Part shown: one piece after another, positions 1 to 49,900 of the stretch
Layout of the letters: each line of letters opens with the position of its first letter
How positions within the stretch are numbered: the stretch's first letter is position 1
The notes under the pieces: model-generated
Databases searched by the model: none
Seen by the model: only the letters and a program-made list of their open reading frames with translations
Told to the model about the DNA's origin: nothing
From: Chondrosia reniformis
Lineage: Eukaryota; Porifera; Demospongiae; Chondrillida; Chondrillidae
Assembly: GCA_947172415.1 (NCBI GenBank)
Contig: OX359189.1
Location: 3,362,501-3,426,500, forward strand
DNA length: 64,000 bases
Direction of reading: 5' to 3'
Program-made: the position numbers and the translations under genes

Positions 1-1390
1 ACACAGGCTAAAGGGCATGACTTTGAACCGTATAGTCCATCTGGAATGCAGAATGCTATCTTCTCCTTGTCAGCCTGAACGATTTCCACCTCCCAGTACC
101 CACTAAGTAAGTCCAGGGTGCCCAGCTAGCATGACCCAGCTAGGGTGTCCAATTTAATGTGTCATCAATCTGAGGCAAGGGGTATGTATCCCTTCTTGTC
201 ACTCCATTTAACTTTCGGTAGTCGATAAAGAAGCGAAGAGACTGCCATCCTTCTTACGTGCCAGGACTACAAATGATGGCCATGGGCTGTAGGAAGGGGA
301 AACAATTTTTGTCTCCAGCATGTCCACTAAGGATGATGGCCCTACAGCAACTGCTGGCATGATGGACAAATCTGATAGCTTCCCTATCTGTCCCAACCTG
401 GTGCCCTTGTGCAAATGTATCATCTGGGAAGTAGGGTTTATGACTCATGCAATTGCAACTTGATCTGAAGGACAATCTACAGCATGGGTAGTCATCACCT
501 GCAACCTGTCATCTGGTAAACCATCCAATAACCAGGTACCCTCTGCACCTTGAGGGGTCTCCACAACCAATTCCAGCTCACTATGGGCAGGCGCATTAAT
601 GGTGGAAACACATGCTACAGGGATTTGGGAGTTACCTTGCTCCTGATCTTTCTCACTCTGCAGCCAGGAGTTGTTGTGATCGTATGGACTGGGTTCTTTG
701 TCCAACATTGATTGAACAATCCTCACCCAGGGTGATGCATACAGATGCTGTGCCCTGTACTTGCAGGTGATTTCCATCTACTTCCACTAGATGTTGTGGT
801 GGAGGAGTCAGGGGGCTGGAGGTACGTCGAGGTGGTTCCAATGATCGGTACGGACCAAAGTGTGTGCTGAGCCAGTATCAACTAGGATTTTGGTGGGTCG
901 GTTAGCTAACATGCCCTCCAGGTAATACACCGCTGATGTACTAACGACCAATACCTGGGGGGTGGTGATCATATAATCGGCTACTCACTAGAGCTAACTC
1001 TATCAGTGCCCTTAAGTATGTGACCCATCATACTGAGGGCTTCAAGTTTCTGAGGCATATTGGCCATGGCTGTACCCCTCGGTACATGGCCTGTCATGCC
1101 GAGGGTTTCCTGTTTCCTTGCACATTGTGCTGAGCGCACCCCTGCTGGTAATTACTCTCCTGACCGTACTTAAAACAAACAACTGTCTTGGGATCCTTTG
1201 TCGTCCTACTGCCTGCCTGGTAGGATCTCCTCTGTATCGCTCCTTGGTGAGCCACTGACCCAATTTCGTGTGATTCCAGTCTCTTGATCCTCTGCACCAA
1301 CTGTGACATCAAGTCAACCATGGTATCTTGTTGTGTCTTAACGGCTGCAACCAGGGGTTCCTGGGTATTGGATACTAAACAGTAGTCAAT
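1..1390 (-). mobile_element. Ty3/gypsy-type LTR retrotransposon fragment (gag knuckle, protease, start of RT)
   Basis: Read on the minus strand, the order is a CCHC-like zinc knuckle (about 1190-1080), an aspartic protease stretch with a DTGSAHTLV-like motif (about 900-850), and the beginning of a reverse transcriptase with the family's SPWxSFVVLxRKKDGS-type motif (about 290-230). This is the gag-pol order of Ty3/gypsy elements. The copy is broken in several places and continues past the left edge. It lies upstream of the first visible Calx-beta exon in opposite orientation, so it probably sits in an upstream intron. No LTR is visible here. It is a fossil. Confidence 0.8.
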
Positions 1391-1975
1391 CTAACAAGGA
1401 GTTTCCGGTTAGAGTAAACATAAAGAACAGGGCATGTGCAGCAACTTTCTATGCATAATGATTACATGCGTGACCCCTTCCTATTTAACACAATAATGAT
1501 AAATGCAAAGCAAATGATACACTGTTACATTTATAAACATAATTTTGTAATGATTCTCTTGGTTGGTTAGTATCCACTCTTTTATCCTTTCTCCGACCTT
1601 AATTAAAATTCAATTTTAATTCATAAAATCACAGGTTTCTATAGTTCTGCTGTTTTCATCATCAGGGCTAAATCATGCATGCAATTCTACACCAATATTA
1701 TACAGAATCATAAGTGCATAAGGTCATTAGTTCAAATTCAGATATAAGGGGACATGTACGTACAGTGTGAAGATGTCCTTTTTCCTTCTATATAAATAGT
1801 GTCCCTCATTAGCAGATCTGGTATATATGCATGATTTAGCCCTGAACTATCAAATTATGTTGGCACTTTTGTGATTTTATGAGTGAATGTGATTTGCTAC
1901 TTGGAGAAAGGAGACATTAAATATAAGAAGTTTTGTAAACAACTGCTTATTAAATATATAATTGATTATTTGTAG

Positions 1976-3282
1976 GTACTCAACTGCAGTTTCAGAGATC
2001 GCTATACACTGTAAGGGAGGGAGTTGGTCTTATTGCAGTACATCTGACAACCCATGGCATACCAATTAATATGACTGTTAAAGTGAAGTGTGAAGATATA
2101 ACTGCAGGTATGCACACTTGATGTAAAAATATTAAATACCAGCTAAGCTATACACTATTCAGAAGTCATGTGTTTATTTATATAGTATATAGAGAATTTG
2201 TATAAGAAAAGTATATATGCATTTAGGTCCTCTAGAATGACCTTATATGTACATTGATATATGTAATAAGCTGATACACAGTTGCTAAATATTTAAACAA
2301 TTATTACTCCTTTTTCGTTTTGCAATTGGAGGTGTGTAGTTGCCTGCTGTAATCATGTTTGTACGTATATATATACATACATTATCCTCTTCCAAGGGAA
2401 ACTAATACTGTATAATACACAGGAACGAATAATGTGTAAATCACAGTTTATTTACACTTGCATAGTGAGTACTTATTTTCTATATCAAAACGGAACTGTC
2501 TAGGTTGAACTGACTCAGTAACTTGAGATCAGTATATGTAGGCAGAATTTATAACAAACCAATCTTTAGCACATATACATTTACAGATTTCCTTGTACCT
2601 ACATAGTTATAGGGAAAGGTTTTACATATAGCTCTGAGCTGCTAACTCTGAATTTGTAGCTTCTTCTAATTTTCACTATTTCTATGAACATCTCTAATGA
2701 ACATGTCACTTTCATTATATATACATGAGAAAGAGGAGCAAATTAAGTATATATAGCTTACGTCTTAGTCATTTTCCATACCAGCTATATATATATTTAT
2801 AGTCATGAAAACAAGGTCCTTGTAAAATATCACAGAATGTTTGCCACCTATCCAAATTCACCAGTTAATTTTTTTGCCCTTGAATACCCCTTTACCACTA
2901 AGCATATACAGTAGGTTTTATAGGTATAACATCTATTATCAGTGAATTTAGTTTATATTAACACTATAGTGGACCTCGAATGCATGTGATATATTTGATT
3001 GCCTTTATGTTTGTGCTCTATGGATTGATTACAGTGTACATTTGCACCTCACCTACTGTACATGCATTATACTTACAGAAAGTGGTTTAGACTACCAACC
3101 ATTGAATATGGAGGTGTTCTTTAATGGAAGCTTTGTATCTACTGCTTTGATGATCAATATTACTGATGATGGTGGATGGGAGAACTTGGAAAAGTTTCAA
3201 ATTTCATTTGCTCTACCAAAGGACGTCAAAGCATTGAAAGCAGAGCCACAAATAGCCATTGTTACAATAGAGGATAATGATG
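1976..3282 (+). CDS. Calx-beta module 1 (exons 1976-2107 and 3079-3282)
   Basis: The first exon follows acceptor TTTGTAG and encodes YTVREGVGLIAVHL, the typical opening strand pair of a Calx-beta domain; it ends at donor GTATGC. The second follows acceptor TTACAG and encodes GLDYQPL, then a beta strand, ITDDGGWENLEKFQISF and finally IVTIEDNDG. The DY, DD and terminal EDNDG positions match the Ca2+-binding loops of the family. The 971-bp intron between them is AT-rich with TATATA runs and holds nothing I recognise. This is the best preserved of the six modules. Confidence 0.85.
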
Positions 3283-6200
3283 GTATACTTATTTAATTAT
3301 CTACCTCCTTTACAGTAGTTAATGCATAATTTTTACGTGGACTGATAGCTAATATATTCCTGACCATGCACATATATATATTATATCAAGTTACTTTAGA
3401 TATTAATTTAGTAATGTTTGATAGGATGTTTATTTTAGCACTCTTTTATTAGTCCTAGGCCTGTATAACTTGAGGGATACGCAAGGTGCAGCCAACGTAC
3501 TGTACATCGGAACCTAAAATCTTGACTGCATTAGTTAACAATTCAATAGGAAGCTAATCACTTGATATTTTGTGATATTGGGGTTATAATAGACTACGTA
3601 TATTCATGATTAAATTGCCATTATGTAATGCAATGCCTTATGTATATTTAGTTGTATCTGTACATTTCAAGTCTGACAGAATAGAATTTTTTAAAAATCT
3701 AAATCAAATCCAACTGTTGGCTGATGGAGCATTTATGAATCCATTCAACATCACTCTTATATGTGGTTAGTTTAACATTGATATTAAACAATATCCTTAT
3801 ACAGTAACTACATGTATATGGCTTGTCATGTATATTTATAAAGCTGTAGAGGCTCATTGCTATGTAAAAATTAGACTGTATGATTTTTCAAGCAATAAGT
3901 AGCAGGAACAATGACAACAATAGTAATATAGGATGTTTTGACCATGAAGGTCTTCATCAGCTGTAAAAACTGAAATGAGTAGAAGTGTGAACTGTTAAAT
4001 AGTAGTTGGTGAGCAAAGTTATACAGGAAATGCAAATAAATGATGTCATGTCAGGAAATTGGCAACTGTTAGGTAGGGGGTTCCAAATAATTAGGGAGAT
4101 TTAGGCAACAGTCCAGGTTCATGCTCTGAGAAATACTGTGAATCTGGACAACTTCTGTAGTCCTTCTCTTGTACATTGGGGAGACAAGGAGAAATTTGAA
4201 GGTCATATTTATCTCTGATATTTGCAACCTCTACTTGTCAGTTTCCTGACATAATGTTGTTTATTTATTCATTTATTTGCATTTCCTATAAAAACATATT
4301 TCGAGTTTAAAAACTATGATTACCTCCTATGAAGATGATTGAAATATGGACCTGTCAATGCCATTTTCTTCTGACTCAAGGTCATCATGTAAGACCAGGT
4401 CATAATACATTATTTCCTATCGTTATGTAATCATTGTGCTATATCTTTCCGTAATATAAAGGCATACAACAGAATCGGTAAATGAAAACAATTAAGGCGC
4501 TGCCCCTAAAAGTTCTCACCATGGCCAACCACTATTTAACACTCACATTTCTACTCATTTCAGTTTTTAGAGCTGAGACCTTTGTGGTATTGTTATTGTT
4601 CATCAATTCCTGCTATGTTATTTGCTCGAAAAAATCGTACAGTCTAATGTATATATTTATATGTTTATATCGAGTATAGTGGTAATAGTGTTTTTATATC
4701 AGAGCACTAATTAAAGTCTGATTCTTCATTAAAGTATAATACATAATCATTAGTGAGATTGTGCCAAACAAGCCAATATAATACCCTTGGCCATGGCTGG
4801 TTTGGTATAATATCTGCGTATATATGTCTTACCACTATAGATTCTTCTTAAAAACTTCATTTTCATGTGCATAATTGTACATACACAAAATCAGTATCTC
4901 TATATATTTATGTATGTAGTTTTCATATTCCACATATAAATTGAATATTTTCAATAGGAAACACTGCTTGGGAACCATTAATTGTACAGTTCAATAATCG
5001 TGGTGGAAATCAGTCTATTTCTACTTCAGTAGAAGTTACTTTAATGGATTTGGATGTCTTAAAATGGACCAGCCACTTCTTTTGCACTATAGAACCACCA
5101 AGTCTAAAGGGAATTATTTTGGGATGTTCTAGTGTATTGGATGTTCATATTATAAAGACTAGTAAGTTGATATGTTCACATCATTTATTTTGACAATGGC
5201 CATATCAAAATTGATTGATACAAGTATGGGTAATACGACCACGACATAGAATATTAAATGTACTATGTTATGGTTCTTGGGTTTAAAGTAGGTAGAATAA
5301 AACTTCTCTTATCCAGGCAATGTGAGAAGACTGTTAAAGTATGCTGGCTTACCACTAGCATACCTAATAGTGTGAAGTATAATTTTAGTGAAGAAATATA
5401 CGTACGTACTTACTAAAACCTTTTTAATCTATATATATTTGAAAGTATCATTGAAACCATGAACCTGGTAATAGCACAGTCTGTATATATTCTTCAGAAA
5501 CAGTGATTACTCCATACCACGGGAAATAGCAGTTGTCATGGAATAGGATAGGAATGTCTATAGGGGAAACTGCAACTACAGTTTTTAATGATTTATAGAG
5601 TTATCTTTCGTAACAAGTTTTCATTTGGAAGGTCCCCTTATCAACTTGCTCATGTGTATATATTAGTGTTTAGAAATCCATACATTTGTCAAATAAATTA
5701 ATTGAAAATTGAAATTAGTATTTCAGTGTATTTATATACACTCCACTACGTATGTAGAAATATACTGTGCTTCGGGAAATTTTCATTGTTAAAATATTTT
5801 TGTGGTTAGCCCAAACGACGAAAAATCCTCACACGAAATATTTTTAACAATAAAATAATGACGCATTGTACAATCTACGTATATGCGACATACGGTCACG
5901 TAAACAGCTGAAAATAGCTTAACTGCGATACCTGCAATGCAAGGATGAACACAGAGATCCCTTTTGTAATCCTTCATTTTCTCAATGTACTGTAATTAAT
6001 TTTCGTGGTAAGATATTTTCGTGGTTGCCCCCAGACCACGACCATATTTTGACACGAAAATTTTCCCAAGAAAATTACTGACCACCTGAATTACAGTACA
6101 TCATTTTTAGTCATAGACATAGAATTTGAAAAGGCTGTTTATCTTGGAGAAGAAGGAGAAAGTGTTTACATCAGGCTTAAAGCATCCGAATCTATCACTA

Positions 6201-9200: not shown

Positions 9201-12200
9201 GGACTAATACAAGAAAATGCAACAAAATCTAAGTACAATAAATAATACAATAAAATAAAAGAAAGATATTAGCAAAATCAAAATATATCAGTTAAATCAC
9301 TGCCAACTGGGGATGTGCCCTTCACTGCAGCAGTACATATGTCCCCTCTGGACAGCCACTGCAATCCTTTGGAGTAGGTAGTGGCACAACAAGACCTCTC
9401 CTGACTCTTCTCTGATGTGCCGGCCAAGCTCCAAGAGCCAAAAGAGTGTGCTTCTGGTCCAAAGACTCCTGTTGTTTTAACCGCCACAGGGACGAAGTGG
9501 TGTGTGGCATCTAGTTCCTCATATTTCCCTGCCTTCCATCGTTCCTCTTGACCTGCCACAGTACCTGCTTCTCTGACAGCCAGCTGCTGATGGGATGGTG
9601 TGAAGGTATCATCCCAGGTGACATCCCAGATAAGGATACGACCTCTTTGCCATGGCATGACAGTAGGACCATCCGGCCGCTTTCCATCTGCCCTGCAAAT
9701 CCTCACTGGGCAAAAAATTAAAATTAGAAATCAATTACAATTTACATTTTTAGTGTAGTGAAAATACGACGGCCAATTTTAGAAGCTGTCCTCATTATTT
9801 CTTATTAATCACTGTTGAAACCTCTCCTCTTTACCCATTGCTGGGGAGATTTTTTATTTCAGCAATACCAATTTGGATGAAATGCTAGACTTGATATCAG
9901 AGCCCAGAACGTCTGGGACCACAGTAAGGGTACCACACCCTTTGATGTTTGATTATTTAACTTACATGTTCCATCATATATTTGAAAATGGCAGTATTCT
10001 GTAAAATGAAGTTTGTTTCCTTTTTCTATCTTCTTTAAAAACTTTAAGGATATTTAACAAAATCGTTAAGAATACAACTATACAAATAAGAAGCTAGGAT
10101 TATAACTTAATTTGTACAAATGTATGTTTGTATGTATTTATATACGTACGTATATGCTAGAATAATATGTATGTATGTATGTATGTATAAAACTAACATT
10201 ATAAAATAAATACAGCATACAGCTTACTTAATGCTGATTTTATAATATACATAGAGTCTCTGGATTACTTCATAAATGGAAATGAAAATGTTGCTGTTTT
10301 TATGCCATACACAAGTATGTCCAGCCTTGCTAGGATTCATTTGGTAAATGATCATTTTCCTGAAAGCAATGAAAAATTTAATTTGTCTCTGAAGCTGCAT
10401 GGAAACACAAGTAATGAACTTAACATACTTCCTTTTACGTCAGAAGCAGTGATTACAATAACAGATACAGATTCTAGTAAGTGTCTATGAAAAGATGATT
10501 GTGCAACTTACGATTAATTGCAGACAAATTTTATTTTGTATATATATATATATTGGTTTCTTAATATTTATACATATATGTGTATATGGATATATTATGT
10601 ATATTTTTCTTTGTAAAGGTTCATCTTTCGACTTTGAGAGCGTCTAGAAATGCAGTTTTTTCGATTCTTCTTTCTGCCAAACCTTTCGACCCTGGGGGTC
10701 TTCTTCAGTGACTGATGTTGGTCTTCAAGGTGTCTTCTTTATAGGCATCTTTTCCCTGCCATTTGTGATTACCTCATCAGTGATGTCATCGGTTACATCA
10801 TTTCCGGAGGAAGGAGAAGTGAAGGGAGTATACGTAAAAAAGGGGGTTCCAACCACTTTTTAATACAATTCCTTGGTCTAAGTTCATTCTCACCTGAGGT
10901 GAGGATGAACTTAGAAGAAGACCCCCAGGGTCCAAACGTTTGGCAGAAAGAAGAATCGAAAAACTGCATCTCTAGACGCTCCCAAAATCGAGAGATAAAC
11001 CTTAACAAAGATAAGTTCGACGCAGTTAGAAGAAATCCTTATTCTATTATGTATATTTTGTTCTCGATTAGTATTACAATATGTGTAATTCGCATTAACA
11101 CGTGCATACAAAATGGCATGCGCGAATGATCCTCAGTGAATTTCAGTGATCCTCAGTAATCATTTGTGACAGGACAGTACATGTTTCACCAAGTAAAGAC
11201 TGAAAGGAAGGAAAAGATGCCAAGGTGCTGCCCGTGCATGGGCAGTGGCAAATGTTTAAGGTGCACATGCGTCAAAGTTGTCAGAAGATGCATCAATTGT
11301 GGTCTGTCTAAGTGTAATCCTGCGAGATGTGTAAACCAGACTATGGCAAGTCAGATGGCGAGTAATGTAAGCACTGAAGGTAACCAGAGTAGTGATACAG
11401 CGGTTCATAATGATTCCGAGTTTAGTAGTACTATGAGCAATGACATGAATCTATTGCAAGACGCCAGAATTAAGCCAGAGCGCAGTGAGATAGAAGCCAG
11501 AGCGCAGTGAGATAGAGATAGAGAGACAGAACCAGACATAATTCAGTTATCTTAATAATCTTAGTAATCTCTTTATCTGGGGTGAATGAGACAGTGAACA
11601 TCTCGTCCCAGCAATATCATTGGCATATAAGGAGATTGTGCACTGGCGGTGGAACAGTTTTATGATACCATCGGTTACCTCAGGCAAGGAGTTTGTCCTC
11701 GAAATGGCAAGGCTCTTTACATCATTTGCCGAGAGAGACCCTCTCTTGAGCCTATTGCCCTACAGACTGTGATGACTATGCCAGCCCTGCTATTACAGAA
11801 GCCCCACAGTCGCTCGAAAGCAAAACACCTTGTTTTTTGCCTGAAGAGGCACCTTGAGACATGGAAAGAAGGCAGAATTGAAGAACTAGTTCATGAGGGG
11901 CGAATAATTCAGAAGCACCCACCAACATCTGCAACATAGAAAAGGAGTAGATAAGTTCAACAGCACATTTGTGAGACTGGTATTTGGTGGTAAGATCAAG
12001 GCTGCCCTATGCTTACGGCCCAACTTTGAAAACAATTGAGGTGGTGTGCTTCCCTTGGGGGCACTGATTGATGGAGAAGAGTACGTGATGTCTTGAAAAA
12101 GAAGCATCCAACAGGAAAAACACCACAACCAGACACATTACTAACCAATGACAACTCTGTTCACACCTCAGTCCACCCCGTCCTTTTTGAGAGAATTGAT

Positions 12201-34117: not shown

Positions 34118-34290
34118 ACTTATCTTTGTAAAGGTTCATCTTAAAGTTTCGACTTTAGGAGCGTCTATAGAGAGAAGTCACTGAAGAAGACCCCCAGGGT
34201 CGAAACGTTTGGCAGAAAGACTGAGAGTCGAAAAACTGCGTCTCTAGACGCTCCCAAAGTCGAAAGATGAACCTTTACAAAGATACGATT
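34118..34290. repeat. Penelope-like terminal repeat with inverted arms
   Basis: TATCTTTGTAAAGGTTCATC at the left matches GATGAACCTTTACAAAGATA at the right. The interior reads ACTGAAGAAGACCCCCAGGG, TCGAAACG and TTTGGCAGAAAG, the same core as in 10914-11040. Compared with the hammerhead core, CTGATGA is changed to CTGAAGA. This is a small relic; no coding part. Confidence 0.6.
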
Positions 34291-37810: not shown

Positions 37811-38080
37811 TACTTGATATTCCCATTCCTGTATTACTGATGAAGACCTGCGGGTTGAAACGTTCAGAATTAGTAAATTTATGTTACTGACATTCAACAA
37901 GCTTAAGGCTATATTCTGACCCATGTGTGTACGTTTTCCATGTGTACATACAGTAGAATCTCATGCATGACGAAATTGCTCATAGTGAATTTCTAAATAT
38001 AGTGAAATACTTTGCTGGCTAATTACACTCAAGTACACTACACAGTGAAAGTTACTGGCAAATTAAATATATATTTTAAA
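37771..38080. repeat. Penelope-like terminal repeat with hammerhead-like core
   Basis: An inverted repeat (AATAAAGCCTTGTTGAGCAT at 37772 against CATTCAACAAGCTTAAGGCT at about 37889) encloses TTACTGATGAAGACCTGCGG, then GTTGAAACG. CTGATGA, a GACC/GGTT stem and GAAAC are the conserved parts of a hammerhead. The sequence is repeated at 43022-43290, directly at the 5' end of the Penelope-like element, which ties the repeat to that family. Confidence 0.6.
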
Positions 38081-39450: not shown

Positions 39451-39534
39451 GAATTTACTAATTTCCTATTTATACTGACTTGTATTCCCATTCCTCCTGA
39501 AAATCTAAGATACCATTTTCCTACATGCTATGCC

Positions 39535-39780
39535 TATTCTGTAAAAGAGCCTATATGGGAACTAAACCTGAAGAGAGCTTTGGACGAAGATACAGGAGTC
39601 TCAGTTTCTTCCTTCTTTTCCCTTCTTTCATCTTCTTCTCCACTGGGTCAGACATCCGTTTCTGGGAATTCCACCCTTCATCAGTGATTCTGGGAGTCTT
39701 TGTCTTTTTCTTTATCTTGCATCTTCTGTGAATCCTTGGCTCTCTATGCTAAATCCAGGGGCCTTATATACACTATTTTG
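39535..39780. repeat. Dispersed repeat shared with 47225-47425
   Basis: Both copies run GGAACTAAACCT...GA, then CATCAGTGAttCTGGGA-like, TCTTTGTCTTttt and GGCTCTCTaTGCTAAATC. The reverse strand contains CACTGATGAAGGGTG, a possible degenerate hammerhead start. Unknown class. Confidence 0.5.
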
Positions 39781-39850
39781 GCGCCACAGGTTAAATAAGG
39801 TGTTAACTAAGACACATGATGAAATTTAATTTTATCAAAGGAATGTAAGT

Positions 39851-40510
39851 CAAATTAAATTTTATGAATTAAATCTATTAGTAATCTTACTAACAGACTC
39901 AGCCTAACTATAGACACAAGTAGAACATATTACATAAGTCTACCCTTAGGTCTTATAGTGGTAGCAATTTTTTGGAGGTAGGGTAACACAGTATGGGGTA
40001 ACACAAGACAGTCCTTTAGCATACTAGCTACTTTTTGCTTATACAGCTATACTTGATTCTAACTAGAGGCTGCCAGGATAGGAAGGTTTTAAAGGTTGAT
40101 TTTAGCTTAAAGTGTTTGTAACCCTGCTTAATAAGCCTACTGCATAACTGCAAACTTTTAGCCTGAAAACTGGAGAATTCATCAAATTAAATTTTATGAA
40201 TTAAATCTATTAGTAATCTTACTAACAGACTCAGCCTAACTATAGACACAAGTAGGACATATTACATAAGTCTACCCTTAGGTCTTATAGTGGTAGCAAT
40301 TCTTTGGAGGTAAGGTAACACAGTATGGGGTAACACAAGACAGTCCTTAAGCATACTAGCTACTTTTTGCTTATACAGCTATACTTGATTCTAACTAGAG
40401 ACTGCCAGGATAGGAAGGTTTTAAGGTTGATTTTAGCTTGAAGTGTTGTAACCCTGCTTAATAAGCCTACTGCATAACTGCAAACTTTTAGCCTGAAAAC
40501 TGGAGAAGTC
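39851..40510. repeat. 342-bp tandem duplication
   Basis: CAAATTAAATTTTATGAATT starts at 39851 and again at 40193, and the two units stay near-identical up to GCCTGAAAACTGGAGAA. On the minus strand the unit covers the end of the Penelope-like RT frame and the following 3' region, so the element's 3' end is duplicated. Confidence 0.9.
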
Positions 40511-43037
40511 ACTACATATTCTGGAATACCTAATTAATTGTGAAATAAAGACACCATAGGCTGGGGTATTAGGAATATTACTATCTAAATGGGGGAAATT
40601 TACTATATCAAAGTTAAAGTCCTCTCGCTTATCATATACTTTAGTGATAAATTGATTACTAGTAATGGTTATATCTAAGTCTAAAAAGGGGGATTTCCTT
40701 GGGCTGGTATTTGTCTTTTTAAGAATAAGTTCTTTAGGGTAAATGTCACAAATTGACAGTTCGAAATCCTTGTTGTTAATACATAAAAGGTCATCAATAT
40801 ACCTATAAGTATTGGCAAATTTAATAGCTCAGGTGATGTTATCCTTAAGTAGTCCTTTCATAAACTCATACTCATAGGCAAACAGAAAAAGATTAGCAAC
40901 TACAGGGGCACAGTCAGTACCCATAGGGGATACCGACACATTGCTAAATACAGAACCGTCTACACATTCAAAAATGTTGTCAATAAGGTAATTAAAGAGC
41001 TCTACTAAATGAACAGCTGTGACTGCTTTATTGGAGACATTGTTAGACCAAAAGGCTTTATCCTGACAGACATCTATATATTGGGGCTTCCACAGGTATA
41101 TAGGCACTATGAATAAGGTTAGTAATCTTGTCTTTAAGTAGGTTATGGGGGATCGCTGTACATAAGGTAGAAAAATCAAAACTAGCTAGCTGGGCTTTTT
41201 TAGTGGGTATAGACCTAAGACTATCTAAGACTTCTAGTGAATTTTCTACTATCCAAAAGGCATTAACACCAGTATTCCTATATATACCTAGGCAGTATTC
41301 TCTAAAATGTTTGAGAATTAGTCTGAGTGCCGAATTTAGAAATCTAGAAAGGGGTTTGGTTGTACATTTGTGAGAGGCAGCTATGAATCTGTAGCTGTAA
41401 GGGTTCTTATGTAGCTTAGACATCCAAGGGGAGGGAAGGTTACACCAGTCTGGTTTAGGTTCTAAGTTCTCTATTTTTAAGAAATCTATGTATTTCCTAA
41501 TTGTTGAGGTTCTACTGTACATTTAGCATAAGTATAGGTACTGCCTAGTTCTTCATTTATGATTTGTCTATAGTAGGACTTACATATAAATATTATATTA
41601 TTAGAGGCCTTATCGGCAGGGGCTATAACATATTTATCATGCAGGTCTGCTAAGAATTTCTTAATTTTAGGGCAAGTAAGGGTCTTCTTGGCTACTGAGG
41701 ATTTGGTATACAATTTAAACAGCTTAGAGATCCTATCATTAATTTTCTTAAGTACAGCATTTTCCCACTCACTAAATACAGAAGTAGATACATTTTCTCT
41801 ACGGGCCCAGGTAATCTTATATTTTCTAAGACCTTCCTTACACATTTTTAAAGCAGTTACCCAGTTAAAGTTATTAGATTCTCTAAATTTTGGTCCTTTC
41901 TTAAGAAGTTTTCTAAGTTTTGGGTTACTTACAATACGTAGGTCACCTGTTAAAACATGGCCTAGGGGCTTGTAAATGAGGGGGACTTGTGACACTCACA
42001 TGACATCTGACTTAGAGGCTTGTGAGAAGTTAAAGATTTGAGGTCCTATTGGTTGGGTATACTTATATACTACACATGGGGGCTCTTTGTTTTGTATAAT
42101 GGGTGGGACAGTTTCTAACACTAACTTTTGGTTTAAGATACATGAGAGGCCTATTTTTTCTACACCTTTATTATGAAACACGATTTTAAGAAACCCTTCT
42201 GGACCTGTTGTTTTCGTTGGGCGTTTGGGTAGGCTGGCTGAAGCGCATGCTTTAATAACGTCTTTGATCATTAACATAAGTCTAAGCAGAAAAGGTGTTT
42301 CTGGGGTGTATATCGATGAGACATTGTACCGAGTTTAACAAACTATGAAGGTGTCAAGCTGGTAATGCAAAAGTATATCGTTTAAGTTTGGCTAGAAAGC
42401 CTACATTCTTGTAAAGTGGTAGTCGTTCTTTGAGCCATTCAGGGTCGAAGGTAGCATTATTACTACTGCCTGTCGATTTTAGATTGGAGCGTCGATGCCG
42501 TCTTTTATGAGATAAGCGATTGAAAAGGTTCCATATGATGATCTCTTTTTAAAGTTTCAAAATATTGCCAACACCTTTAATGTTATCATTAAGTCCATAT
42601 GGGTAAATAGAGCAGAGTTCCTTGTAACAGAACGCTTCTCTCAGTAGTCTGAGGCTAGTAGAATTAGGTGTCTCAGGTATCTGTTCTATGGGCATAATCA
42701 AGGCATCGTCAAAACTATGGTTATCAGAATTAAAGTGATTGTAGAGATACAGTGGCTTAAAACCTTTGGTACTAGTCCTATGGTTATTCATTCTACTCCT
42801 AAGCATTTGAGAGGTTTCTCCTACATACTGTGCATCACATCGTTTACAAGTAATAAGATACACAACATTCCTACTCTGGCATCCTAGGGGACCACAAGGG
42901 CTACGGACTTGATAGGTCCTGCCAGTAACTGAACTCTTAAAAGTAGGGCCAGTAACTAAAGAGGGACATGTTTTACACCGCTTATTACTACACTTCTTAA
43001 CTAGAGTATTCTTCATCAGCAATACTCATGTATTGCT
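39851..43037 (-). mobile_element. Penelope-like retroelement, permuted type (GIY-YIG before RT)
   Basis: On the minus strand a GIY-YIG endonuclease comes first (43022-42549, 157 codons): Cys-rich start (KRCKTCP), NVVYLITCKRCDAQYVGETS (VYL at residue 54, YVG at 66), LRSRMNNHR and LREAFCYKEL. After about 270 bp the RT follows (about 42277-40520): LPSPWMSKLHKNPYSYRFIA, ASFDFSTLCTAIP, SPMGTDCAPVVANLFLF, the catalytic YIDDLL near 40795, and SPFLDLDITIT and NFPHLDSNIP. Canonical Penelope-like elements carry the endonuclease after the RT; the N-terminal position is that of the permuted Naiad/Chlamys group as I recall it. The coding region is broken in several places. A hammerhead-like repeat abuts its 5' end. 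Confidence 0.8.
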
Positions 43038-43290
43038 GATGAAGACCCTCGGGTCGAACCGTCCAGAATTAGTAAATTTATGTTGCTGACGTTCAACAAG
43101 GCTTTATTCTTGTCCATTTTGTGTATGTTTTCCATGTGTACATACAGTAGAATCTCATAATGAAATTGCTCATAGCAAATGTCTATAAGTAGAGTGAAAT
43201 ACTTTGCTAGCTAATTACACTCAAGTACACTACACCGTGCAAGTTACTGGCAAATATATATATAAAATATTAAAATTACAATCAAGTACT
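43022..43290. repeat. Penelope-associated terminal repeat, second copy
   Basis: It starts inside the palindrome CTTCATCAGCAATAC-TCAT-GTATTGCTGATGAAG, then reads GACCCTCGGGTCGAACCG and the same AGAATTAGTAAATTTATGTT block as 37855. CTGATGA, a perfect GACCC/GGGTC stem and GAAC (for GAAAC) are present. It lies in inverted relation to the endonuclease frame that begins at 43022 on the other strand. Confidence 0.65.
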
Positions 43291-43472: not shown

Positions 43473-45560
43473 GTGATTGGAAATGAGGCCCAGCTTAGAA
43501 GAATGGCAGAATTTGAAGTTATCACTATGTCTGATTTATTGTTGAGATATGATGAAATTCTTAACTTATCCTCTGATCACAGCATCTTGTTCCCAGACAT
43601 AGCAACTGGCACTGCCCCCTCTCTAAACAAGGGCAAAATAAAAAAAATTGGGAAAAGGGGAGCTGCCAGACAGATTTTTGATCTCAAAATCATCCCTGTT
43701 ACATTTATGAATACTGAAAATGTCAAACGAACAATGCAAGGCTGCACTGATAAGTTGATAGGAATGCAGAGAGACATCAGCTTGACTCTGAAATATGTAG
43801 ATAGAATTAGATGAAATATGTGATGAATTTGTATCCACTGTAAAAGGAGAAATGTAAGAAAAGATACCTGGCCATAATCACTATAAAGGCAGGTCATAGT
43901 AGACAATTTAGGCTTAGCAAGACTTGGTGGAACAAGGAACTTTTTACTCTTAAAAAGCACATGAAGAGGTGTGAAAGGGAATGGCTGGATTACAAAGAAA
44001 ACCAATGAATTAAGAATGCTCTTACAGTGAAGTATATTCAATCTAGAAAAGCCTACAAAAATGCTACAAAAGAAGTATAAGAACTTGGAAATCTACAAAA
44101 GAAGTCGATATATTGATCATCTAATCAAACATAGTATGTAATACTAGATTTCCAATATATATGAAGAAAAAGGTGGATGGAATTGAGAAGCTAAAGTATC
44201 AGGGTAGGATTGAAACAGAAAGTAATGAAATAGCCAAGCCCAGGTAATATGAATTACCAAATGATATAGGGGGCTCGGAATATAATGAACGACAGAGTGA
44301 AATGCTTAATGATAAAATAAGTGAAGATGAAGTCAAAGGCGCCCACCTGGCATTACAAGATGCCAAGTTAAAGGATGATAAATCAGCAGGATATGATTGA
44401 GTTCCAGCTGAGGCTATTAAGAATGAGGCTAGTTGAAAATTTTTAACACTAACATTTGTTTTAGAAAATCATTCTCCCTAATGGAGTGGAAATACGTATA
44501 TATGGGATCATAATTCCAATCCCAAAAAGAGCAATAATATTGATTTGAATGACTATAAAGGCATAATACTGGTCCCAACCATCTATAAAGTGTTCTATGG
44601 GATCTTGAATAAAAGAATAACAAACTGGGTGCAGGCAAAAAGGATGATTAACGAGGTACAAAATGGTTTTAGATCAGAAAGGAGTTGTGTAGAACATATC
44701 TTTAACAAACATACTACACAACAGACTCCTATATACATAATAAAAATAGCTTTGTTGCATTCATTGATCTCAGAAAGGCCTATGATTCAATTAATAGAAA
44801 TATTTTATGGCAGAAATTACACAGTATTGGATTGTCTGACCATATGATTGGAATGATCAAAAACCTATATGAAGGGGTGTCTTGTGTGAAAGTAGACAGT
44901 TCCACTCACAGTGAATTCTTCCAGATTAATAGAGGAGTCAGACAAGGTTGCATTCTCTCCCCTACCCTTTTAATATCTTTATTAATGATATTATGAATAC
45001 CTTATCCGGTGATAAAGGATTAGAAATTGAGGATAATATAATCAACTGCCTAGAAGAATTATTAATGAATATAGGAAACTGCATGGTGCAAGCTAAACCA
45101 GCTGGAAATCAATGAATCCAAATCTGCCATAATCCATTTTAGAAAGAAATCAGAACTACACATAGATTTTATATTTCAGGCCATTAATAGTACCATTGAG
45201 TCCTATGAAGTACGTACTTATAGGGTTCCTACTGAATGAATTCCTGGACTTTTAATTGATTTATAACGATAGCTTAACGAAACCAAAGAGAGCATTTTTT
45301 AAGATTAAAGATGATTGGCATAGAAGAGGAGAAATTAAGTCCCATGTTTTCAAGAGGTTTATCAAAGCATTCATATTTCCAATATTCGATTATGCATGCC
45401 AAATCTGGAGTCCCTTTCTAGGAAGACATAAAAAGGATGTAATTAATATTGAAATTGAAAGAATTTTTCTAGGGGTCAGCAGATTGCACCCGACCATTGC
45501 CATAGAGAATGATATGGTTTGGGAATTAATAGAAGAAAGACATAATCTGCAGATATAGAA
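43473..45560 (+). mobile_element. LINE of RTE/CR1-like type, degenerate
   Basis: RT motifs in order: NDYKGIILVPTIYKVFYGIL (44548), NEVQNGFRSERSCVEHIF, FVAFIDLRKAYDSINRNILW (about 44752), FFQINRGVRQGCILSP (about 44922), and IKAFIFPIFDYACQIWSPF (45364). The 5' part (43473-43814) encodes SDLLLRYDEILNLSSDH, which may be the linker after the endonuclease. Several frame changes; no catalytic YADD is readable. The clade is uncertain. Confidence 0.7.
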
Positions 45561-46947: not shown

Positions 46948-49900
46948 GTAAGACTTGCTTAATTGTAAGAGTAACAATTCATATTTGGATGAAAATTACA
47001 ATATATATTGATTTTGTTTCATGAGTGTACCAATGGAGAACATAATTGTCAACATATATGTACGTAACTATCAAATACTTGTGGAAGTTAGAACTGATAA
47101 AAAGTCCATACCTTCACATTAAAAGACATGTCTCTAAATGTGAAGGTTTGGATTTTTTATCACACTCTGACTATATGAATAATCTCACACAACATTTTAT
47201 AATATGCTACATCTACTTGACTTTGAGTTTAGGGAACTAAACCTAGTAAGACCTTTAGATGAGGATACCAGTATTTTCTCCTTAAGTTCTTAATACTCCT
47301 GAGAGCCAGACAGCTGCTTCGAGGAATGTGTTTTCATCAGTGACCCTGGGAATCTTTGTCTTCTTTTTGATAATTTGTAAGTCCCTGCATGGCTCTCTGT
47401 GCTAAATCTAGTGGTTTTGGAAATACAGTAGAATATTGATAAGACTAATCTCTGATTGAGGACTTAAATTATGATCGAATTATCAGTACTTCTACTTATC
47501 AGAATACATAACATCAATTGGCTGATAAAGTATTGTACTCACTTAGCAGGGATGGCTGAACAAACATGGCCACTTACGTATATATTCAGTGTAATATTAA
47601 TTTTTAATTATCACCTCCAAAATCAGCAATTGATGATTTTCATTGGACAATACTTAGTTATTTTATATCCTTTTCTTAACATCAAAACATTTTGCAACAC
47701 TCTACACTTTTATTATAGCAATGAAGATAATGAATGAACTACCCTGATACGTATAATTCAAAATATCTCAGATTTCCAATTTTGACTTAACAGCTTTTAG
47801 CTATATGCTATGGGTGGAACAATTAATGATATACATGTATATTTATCACTTTGTATATACATATTTTGTCAAGGTGTAGCTTGATTTAATTAAATCAAAC
47901 CTTTCTAATTTTGTTGTTACAGACATCAATGAGTGTGATGTTGATAATGGAGGATGTAGCCACATATGTCATAATACTCTTGGTTCATTCTACTGTGATT
48001 GTAAGGAAGGTTATACACTGCATTCAAATGGAAAAAATTGTACTGGTAGGTTATACGAGAGTCATTTTTCTGACTGTATATAATCTGACTTGAAGACAGT
48101 TTTTTTTCATATTGTTGTTACAGATATCAATGAGTGCAATAATAATAAAGGAGGATGTAGCGATATATGTCATAATACTCTGGGTTCATTCTACTGTGAT
48201 TGTAAGGAAGGTTATACACTGCATTCAGATGGAGAAAGCTGTTATTGTAGGTTACACGAAAGTCATTTTTTCTAACTGTATATAATTTGACTTGAAGACA
48301 TATTGTTGTTACAGATATCAGTAAATGCAATAGTGATAATGGAGGATGTAGCCACACATGTCATGATACTCTTGGTTCAGTCTACTGTGGTTGTATGGAA
48401 GGTTATACATTGCATTCAAATGGAAAATATTGTACTGGTAGGTTATACGAGAGTCATTTTTTCTGACTGTATATAATTTGACTTGAAGAGAGTTTTTTTC
48501 ATATTGTTGTTACAGATATCAATGAGTGCAATAATAATAATGGAGGATGTAGCCACATATGTCATAATACTCTTGGTTCATTCTACTGTGATTGTAAGGA
48601 AGGTTATACACTGCATTCAGATGGAGAAAGCTGTTATTGTAGGTTATACGAAAGTCATTTTTTCTAACTGTATATAATTTGACTTGAAGACAGTTTTTTT
48701 CATATTGTTGTTACAGATATCAGTAAGTGCAATAGTGATAATGGAGGATGTAGCCACACATGTCATGATACTCTTGGTTCATTCACCTGTAGTTGTATGG
48801 AAGGTTATACATTGCATTCAAATGGAAAAAATTGTACTGGTAGGTTATACGAAAGTCATTTTTTCTAACTGTATATAATTTGACTTGAAGACAATTTTTT
48901 TCATATTGTTGTTACAGATATCAATGAGTGCAATAATAATAATGTAGGATGTAGCCACATATGTCGTAATACTCTTGGTTCATTCTACTGTGATTGTCAG
49001 GAAGGTTATACATTACATTCAGATGGAGAAAGCTGTATTGGTAGGTTATACGCAAGTCATTTTTTGTAACTGTATATAATTTGACTTGAAGAATGTTTTT
49101 TCTATATTGTTATTAAAGACATCAATGAATGTGATTATTATAATGGAGGATGTAGCCACATATGTCGTAATACTCTGGGTTCATTCTACTGTGATTGTCA
49201 GGAAGGTTATACATTACATTCAAATGGAGAAAGCTGTATTGGTAGGTTATACGTAAGTCATTTTTTGTAACTGTATATAATTTGACTTGAAGAAAGTTTT
49301 TTTCCATATTGTTGTTACAGAGATCAATGAGTGCAATAATGATAATGGAGGATGTAGCGATATATGTCGTAATACTCTTGGTTCATTCTACTGTGATTGT
49401 AGGGAAGGTTATACATTGCATTCAAATGGAAAAAATTGTACTGGTAGGTTATATACATATGTGTATTACTAAACCATGGAGGGTATATACATACTTTCTC
49501 CCCTTCTGATTTCTTTACTTAACTACTTAACTATATTCCATTGTTTATTCTCATTCACCAATTGTAAATTTTAAATTTTATGTTTATACTGTATCTGAAA
49601 TTAAATATAAATATACTGTAAGTTGACTTAAAGAAATCTTTCCATATTGCATGTTGTTGTATCAATGAGTGCAATGATGGTAATGGAGGATGTAGCCACA
49701 TGTCTGTAACACTGGTGGTTCATACTATTGTCGCTGCAGGACAGGCTGTAGATTGAATTCAAAATGTTATTTCCCTATATAATGGTAGATTATGAAATTG
49801 CATCTAAATTTAAAATTGCAGATTTACAGTAAATCATTCTTTTGGTATTTGCTTTGCAGACATAAATGAGTGTTCTAATCATTATGGCGGGTGTAGTCGC

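Follow-up and report, generated by a model that had tools for sequence, protein, structure and literature searches.

A GIY-YIG endonuclease ahead of a reverse transcriptase

Does a GIY-YIG endonuclease that precedes a reverse transcriptase (RT) on one strand belong to a single, permuted Penelope-like element (PLE), or to two PLE copies lying head to tail? The question is raised by the minus strand of the window, the 64,000-nucleotide stretch of the Chondrosia reniformis genome analyzed here, where a first-pass annotation had proposed a Naiad-like element with its endonuclease encoded first and had kept the head-to-tail pair as the alternative. Our answer, in which we have high confidence, is a Naiad-like PLE with a GIY-YIG-first ORF, a CxC-bearing linker, pseudo-LTRs, insertion at CA^TRYA, and the priming mechanism proposed below. 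The endonuclease-first order in itself is that of an already described group of PLEs, and the sponge family is a good example of it.

The domain order reported at first pass was borne out. An ORF piece at 42549-43025 (-) carries a GIY-YIG endonuclease, with a PF01541 profile match at approximately 42765-42866 (E = 3.6e-5, 24.4 bits, cut-off 22.6), and further downstream the RT domain is split over four minus-strand ORF pieces in shifted frames at 40433-41995 (-), which we aligned to the DNA of an intact 973-aa ORF. These pieces contain the RT blocks ASFDFSTL, PMGTDCAPVVANLF, and YRYIDDLL. In the endonuclease piece, a C..C pair lies between the two motifs, with His residues downstream, and LREAFC (LREAFW in intact copies) and GLNDN presumably hold the catalytic E and N. 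Single-sequence structure prediction of this ORF was uninformative (pLDDT 36.5).

The window copy is old and dead

The first-pass annotation had placed the element at 39851-43037; its location held, but its ends did not. Compared by blastn with the 3501-bp family unit (L013:3206-6706), the copy runs from 43004 to approximately 39500 (-), about 350 bp beyond the lower limit, and corresponds to unit positions 296-3498. The identity is 94% over 43004-40182 and 91% over 40181-39500. The copy is 5′-truncated, lacking the first 295 nt of the unit with the start codon included, and it is frame-shifted: the codons of the CxC motif (C-E-C-H-K) at 41986-42000 (-) have fallen out of frame after a small upstream deletion. 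It also contains an internal tandem duplication of approximately 330 bp at 39850-40511 (-), spanning the ORF end and the start of the 3′ UTR, which was absent from all 20 other copies compared. The copy carries indels of its own and represents an older lineage, with 102 ORF differences from the intact copy L013 as opposed to 1-46 for 19 others. As a member of a Naiad-like family, it is both old and dead. Adjoining it, at 44706-44996 (+), is a fragment of a different RT element (RVT_1, E = 1.1e-12).

One ORF carries both domains throughout the family

The sponge's own genome comprises 117,379,552 bases in 15 contigs, of which C15 (17,451 bases) carries a COI gene that is translated with TGA as W. 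We searched it with window positions 39851-43037 and obtained 42 matches, one of which was the window itself. Most of the others (28 of 41) start at query position 34, equivalent to window position 43004, end at 2836-2856 (window position ~40182), and are collinear with the window copy. The 20 copies fetched with their flanks were the best search candidates, so truncated and diverged copies are under-sampled among them. When the domain order was checked across these copies, the endonuclease lay on the 5′ side in 20 of 20. In eight of them, an open frame spans at least 997 aa between stops (973 aa counted from the first Met), reading GIY-YIG, CxC-bearing linker, and RT in that order, and a protein search of the same genome gave at least nine full-length (1-973), stop-free matches among the 50 matches listed. 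The permuted order is thus a trait of the family, and it is not the work of a chimera because it sits inside one ORF common to many loci. The spacing of about 270 bp first noted between the two domains proved too small: in intact copies, the stretch of the one ORF from the endonuclease to the first RT motif is some 300 coding residues long. We also considered and rejected recoding at the frameshifts or at UGA, as the ORF is spanned without a stop at those nine or more places.

Profile searches with the intact protein gave a GIY-YIG match in Pfam at residues 102-135 (E = 2.1e-4, 22.0 bits, below the 22.6 cut-off), and no Pfam RT was called in the 973 aa. Against solved structures, profile A1 matched weakly, with a best RT at E = 0.022 and the GIY-YIG endonuclease 1ln0 at E = 0.23 (positions 105-196), and phmmer of P0001 gave one match (E = 0.17) that we judged to be chance. 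No relatives were found in viral_contigs or genome_contigs, each of which was scanned twice.

The 3′ end of the unit, which follows the RT and reads TTTTTCA, is the same in all 20 copies, and truncation takes the endonuclease end first. At 14 of the 20 loci, a 5′-truncated partner unit lies upstream, head to tail, as a pseudo-LTR, ending at the last base of the unit in every case (14/14); the other six loci have none. The downstream unit of L019 has an interruption of its own. The opposite order, an RT followed by this same endonuclease, occurs only across the borders of tandem units, where the RT stop codon, 3′ UTR, and 5′ UTR intervene. A 28-base pattern of the 3′ end was found at 2731 places in the genome with up to three mismatches (reversed control, 0). 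Because there are so many such places compared with the 50 ORF matches listed, we infer that most copies of the family are short tails. Among the first 100 places listed, some 3′ ends face each other in pairs with 48-64 bp between them (C1:931984/932066, 3864678/3864744, and 7623046/7623122), possibly paired insertions in opposite orientation.

Between the window copy and L013, 52 of 102 differences are synonymous, where 27.65% are expected, and the excess extends over the endonuclease (6/10, P = 0.033), the linker (16/34, P = 0.018), and the RT (30/58, P = 1.6e-4). When the differences of the other 19 copies were pooled, a clear synonymous excess appeared in the RT only (38/83, P = 6e-4), with no clear excess in the endonuclease (9/22, P = 0.13) or the linker (20/69, P = 0.52). 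We read the synonymous excess as purifying selection on the ORF.

A TATA box and a hammerhead-like core in the 3′ tail

The tail of the window copy holds a TATATAA box at 39764-39770 (-), upstream of a hammerhead-like core (CTGATGA..GAAAC..GTC) at 39651-39684 (-). The box is present in six of the seven tails compared, the seventh (L045) reading TATATAT, and is a possible promoter of the pseudo-LTR.

The core raises an additional possibility, namely that this Naiad-like element has a working hammerhead in its tail which cuts tandem transcripts to unit length. The core is common to 20 of 20 copies, 11 upstream partial units, and two of three further tails, and its pattern, although chosen after the sequence had been seen, matches the window once and none of 100 shuffles. 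An older tail from a related family at 47232-47414 (-), a 69% match to the 3′ tail of the unit, retains CTGATGA and GTC; however, it has lost stem II and its GAAA is changed. The core is also altered in two older relatives in L018, and the third of the further tails (L043) reads CTGATGC. An A.A mismatch lies beside the core at the base of stem II, Rfam gave no hammerhead match, nor a match of any kind over the whole window at the gathering cut-off, and folding produced a minimum-energy structure other than a hammerhead, with no advantage over shuffled sequences (z = 0.99 and -0.08). On balance, we consider a working hammerhead unlikely.

Loose hammerhead-like cores are frequent in the window as a whole (11, against 2.5 expected). 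Three of the others share the form CTGAWGAAGACC...GGGTYGAAA, at 10684-10708 (-), 34181-34205 (+), and 37837-37860 (+).

Comparison with Naiad, Chlamys, and canonical PLEs

Naiad elements reportedly combine an N-terminal endonuclease with a CxC linker, a CCHH motif, an insertion in fingers (IFD) in the RT, pseudo-LTRs, and a bias toward microsatellites. The Naiad-like reading made at first pass was supported, the name itself resting on features of this kind. In the sponge family, one ORF encodes the endonuclease on the N-terminal side of the RT, and the short linker carries a CxC (PEPCECHKSP, residues 392-401), in keeping with the Naiad definition. The intact endonuclease contains CKQC at residues 108-111 along with H130, H145, and H151, which we take to be the Naiad CCHH motif. 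Alignment with the canonical PLE of this genome shows 15-18 additional residues in the permuted ORF from RT motif 2 to motif A, where telomerases carry the IFD. The pseudo-LTR tandems, the insertion into simple repeats, and the high copy number are likenesses to Naiad. The tail differs in its hammerhead-like core, as the Naiad clade is not known to have canonical hammerheads, and the nine intact sponge ORFs have no in-frame UGA, unlike the Naiads of spiders and clams, which are said to be selenoproteins with in-frame UGA. The Chlamys elements of algae, spike mosses, and slime moulds also encode the endonuclease first, but Chlamys is not known to carry a CCHH motif, and the sponge family has one.

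The CxC, the C..C with its His residues, and the extra stretch separating motif 2 from motif A are all consistent with Naiad, which weighs against an endonuclease-first order gained independently by a lineage outside Naiad and Chlamys. What favors such a gain is the host, since it is a sponge and no report of Naiad in sponges was found among the papers listed from the open-licence literature searched, a body that excludes the key Naiad paper (Craig et al. 2021, MBE 38:5005); we regard it as very improbable. PMC10941475 uses Naiad as a class name. The sponge family is young, present in many copies, and endonuclease-first, and it shares its genome with a canonical PLE.

Canonical PLEs (Penelope/Poseidon, Neptune, and Nematis) resemble the sponge family in their PLE-type RT and GIY-YIG endonuclease, but they carry the endonuclease after the RT and have nothing extra inserted ahead of motif A. 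Elements of this type are also described as having pseudo-LTRs, 5′ truncation, and target duplications (PMC3846280, PMC11167929). The canonical PLE of this genome (L039) reads RT then endonuclease, has 54 matches among those listed, and shares 23% identity with the permuted ORF over the aligned RT. L039, L040, and further places comprise this PLE, with an 831-aa open frame, and relatives of approximately 73% identity, with 858-aa frames. That two canonical copies stand in tandem in the window, the leading one lacking an RT and the trailing one an endonuclease, is hardly conceivable: PLE tandems are common, according to PMC11167929, and truncated tandem partners abound at the loci studied here, but the pair is ruled out because the endonuclease and RT share a single open frame at the full-length places and the sequence end that follows the RT does not vary, while truncation starting from the endonuclease end and the low RT identity of the resident canonical family speak against it too.

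Insertion sites and a proposed mechanism

The Naiad-like family inserts mostly at CA^TRYA, with target duplications of about 6 bp. In a test covering 19 of the 20 loci, the longest match between borders averaged 6.7 nt (median 6) versus 3.0 for derangements, none of 1,000 of which reached 6.7; this mean is pulled up by loci in arrays, among them L017 (19 nt) and L021 (11 nt). The match was free to lie within 34 nt at the left border and to start 0-2 nt into the word. L019 was left out because its left border is complex, and for L028 that border was moved 9 nt to the right by eye. The bases after CA in the 19 loci were T in 17, R in 18, Y in 17, and A in 17. The full CATRYA was present at 14 loci, and the other five differ from it at one or two positions. 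Genome-wide, TRYA follows 745 of 1618 exact 3′ ends, where 2.4% would be expected from the base composition of the window.

Nine of the 20 loci lie in CATACAACTAGT-like minisatellite arrays, compared with none of 200 window stretches. The period is approximately 13 bp (13 in L013), making these arrays simple repeats but not strictly microsatellites. CATACA occurs within the CATACAACTAGT-type minisatellite, and such repeated targets fit the presence of the element in arrays. Full sites are found at eight of nine loci in arrays and six of ten outside; since the arrays are rich in CATRYA, target preference and array context are partly confounded. The putative CA^TRYA target offers a testable reason for the siting of such elements in simple repeats, in that the minisatellite contains the target. 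A stronger proposal, which joins a hammerhead-derived self-cleaving RNA in a Naiad-like pseudo-LTR, used to process tandem transcripts as no other Naiad is known to do, to a sequence-specific CA^TRYA endonuclease that would explain the preference of the clade for simple repeats, strikes us as unlikely.

The window copy is flanked by CATGAG at 43025-43030 (-) on its 5′ side and by CAGGAG, with one change, at 39494-39499 (-) on its 3′ side. This target-site duplication was identified against unoccupied relatives of the target, which read CAGCAATACATGAGGAATGGG or one base off in seven of seven cases (L032-L038). The site CATGAG matches CATR only. Between the 5′ duplication and the element lies a 20-nt filler at 43005-43024 (-), in which 15 nt (43010-43024) equal the inverted target flank and 5 nt are unmatched. 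The same arrangement appears as a 16-nt inverted repeat (I9), 100% complementary, between 43010-43025 and 43030-43045. In PLEs, inverted junctions with palindromes have been described (PMC3846280).

We propose the following sequence of events. Transcription would begin at the TATATAA box in the pseudo-LTR of an upstream partial unit. The endonuclease would nick the target at CA^TRYA, and the DNA 3′ end would prime reverse transcription at a fixed point of the RNA. Early stops of reverse transcription would yield the 5′ truncations, the second strand would be cut about 6 nt away, and template switching could generate the tandems. In the window copy, template switching would have let the polymerase snap back onto the target flank and leave a filler; a reversed copy of that flank, as seen in 15 of the 20 nt, is what such a snap-back would be expected to give.

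The flank at 43010-43113 bears a hammerhead-like core of its own and was considered as a part of the element. We rejected this candidate: it is the target, a separate repeat that is unoccupied in all seven relatives read. Genome-wide, this repeat had 545 first-look candidates, 75 matches with inverted arms counted, and 40 scored places. It scores below the Rfam cut-off as microRNA hairpins. The repeat lies at 43010-43113 (+) and in L032-L038, and in some copies, L034 among them, its long inverted arms enclose the hammerhead-like core CTGATGAAGACC...GGGTCGAAACGTC.
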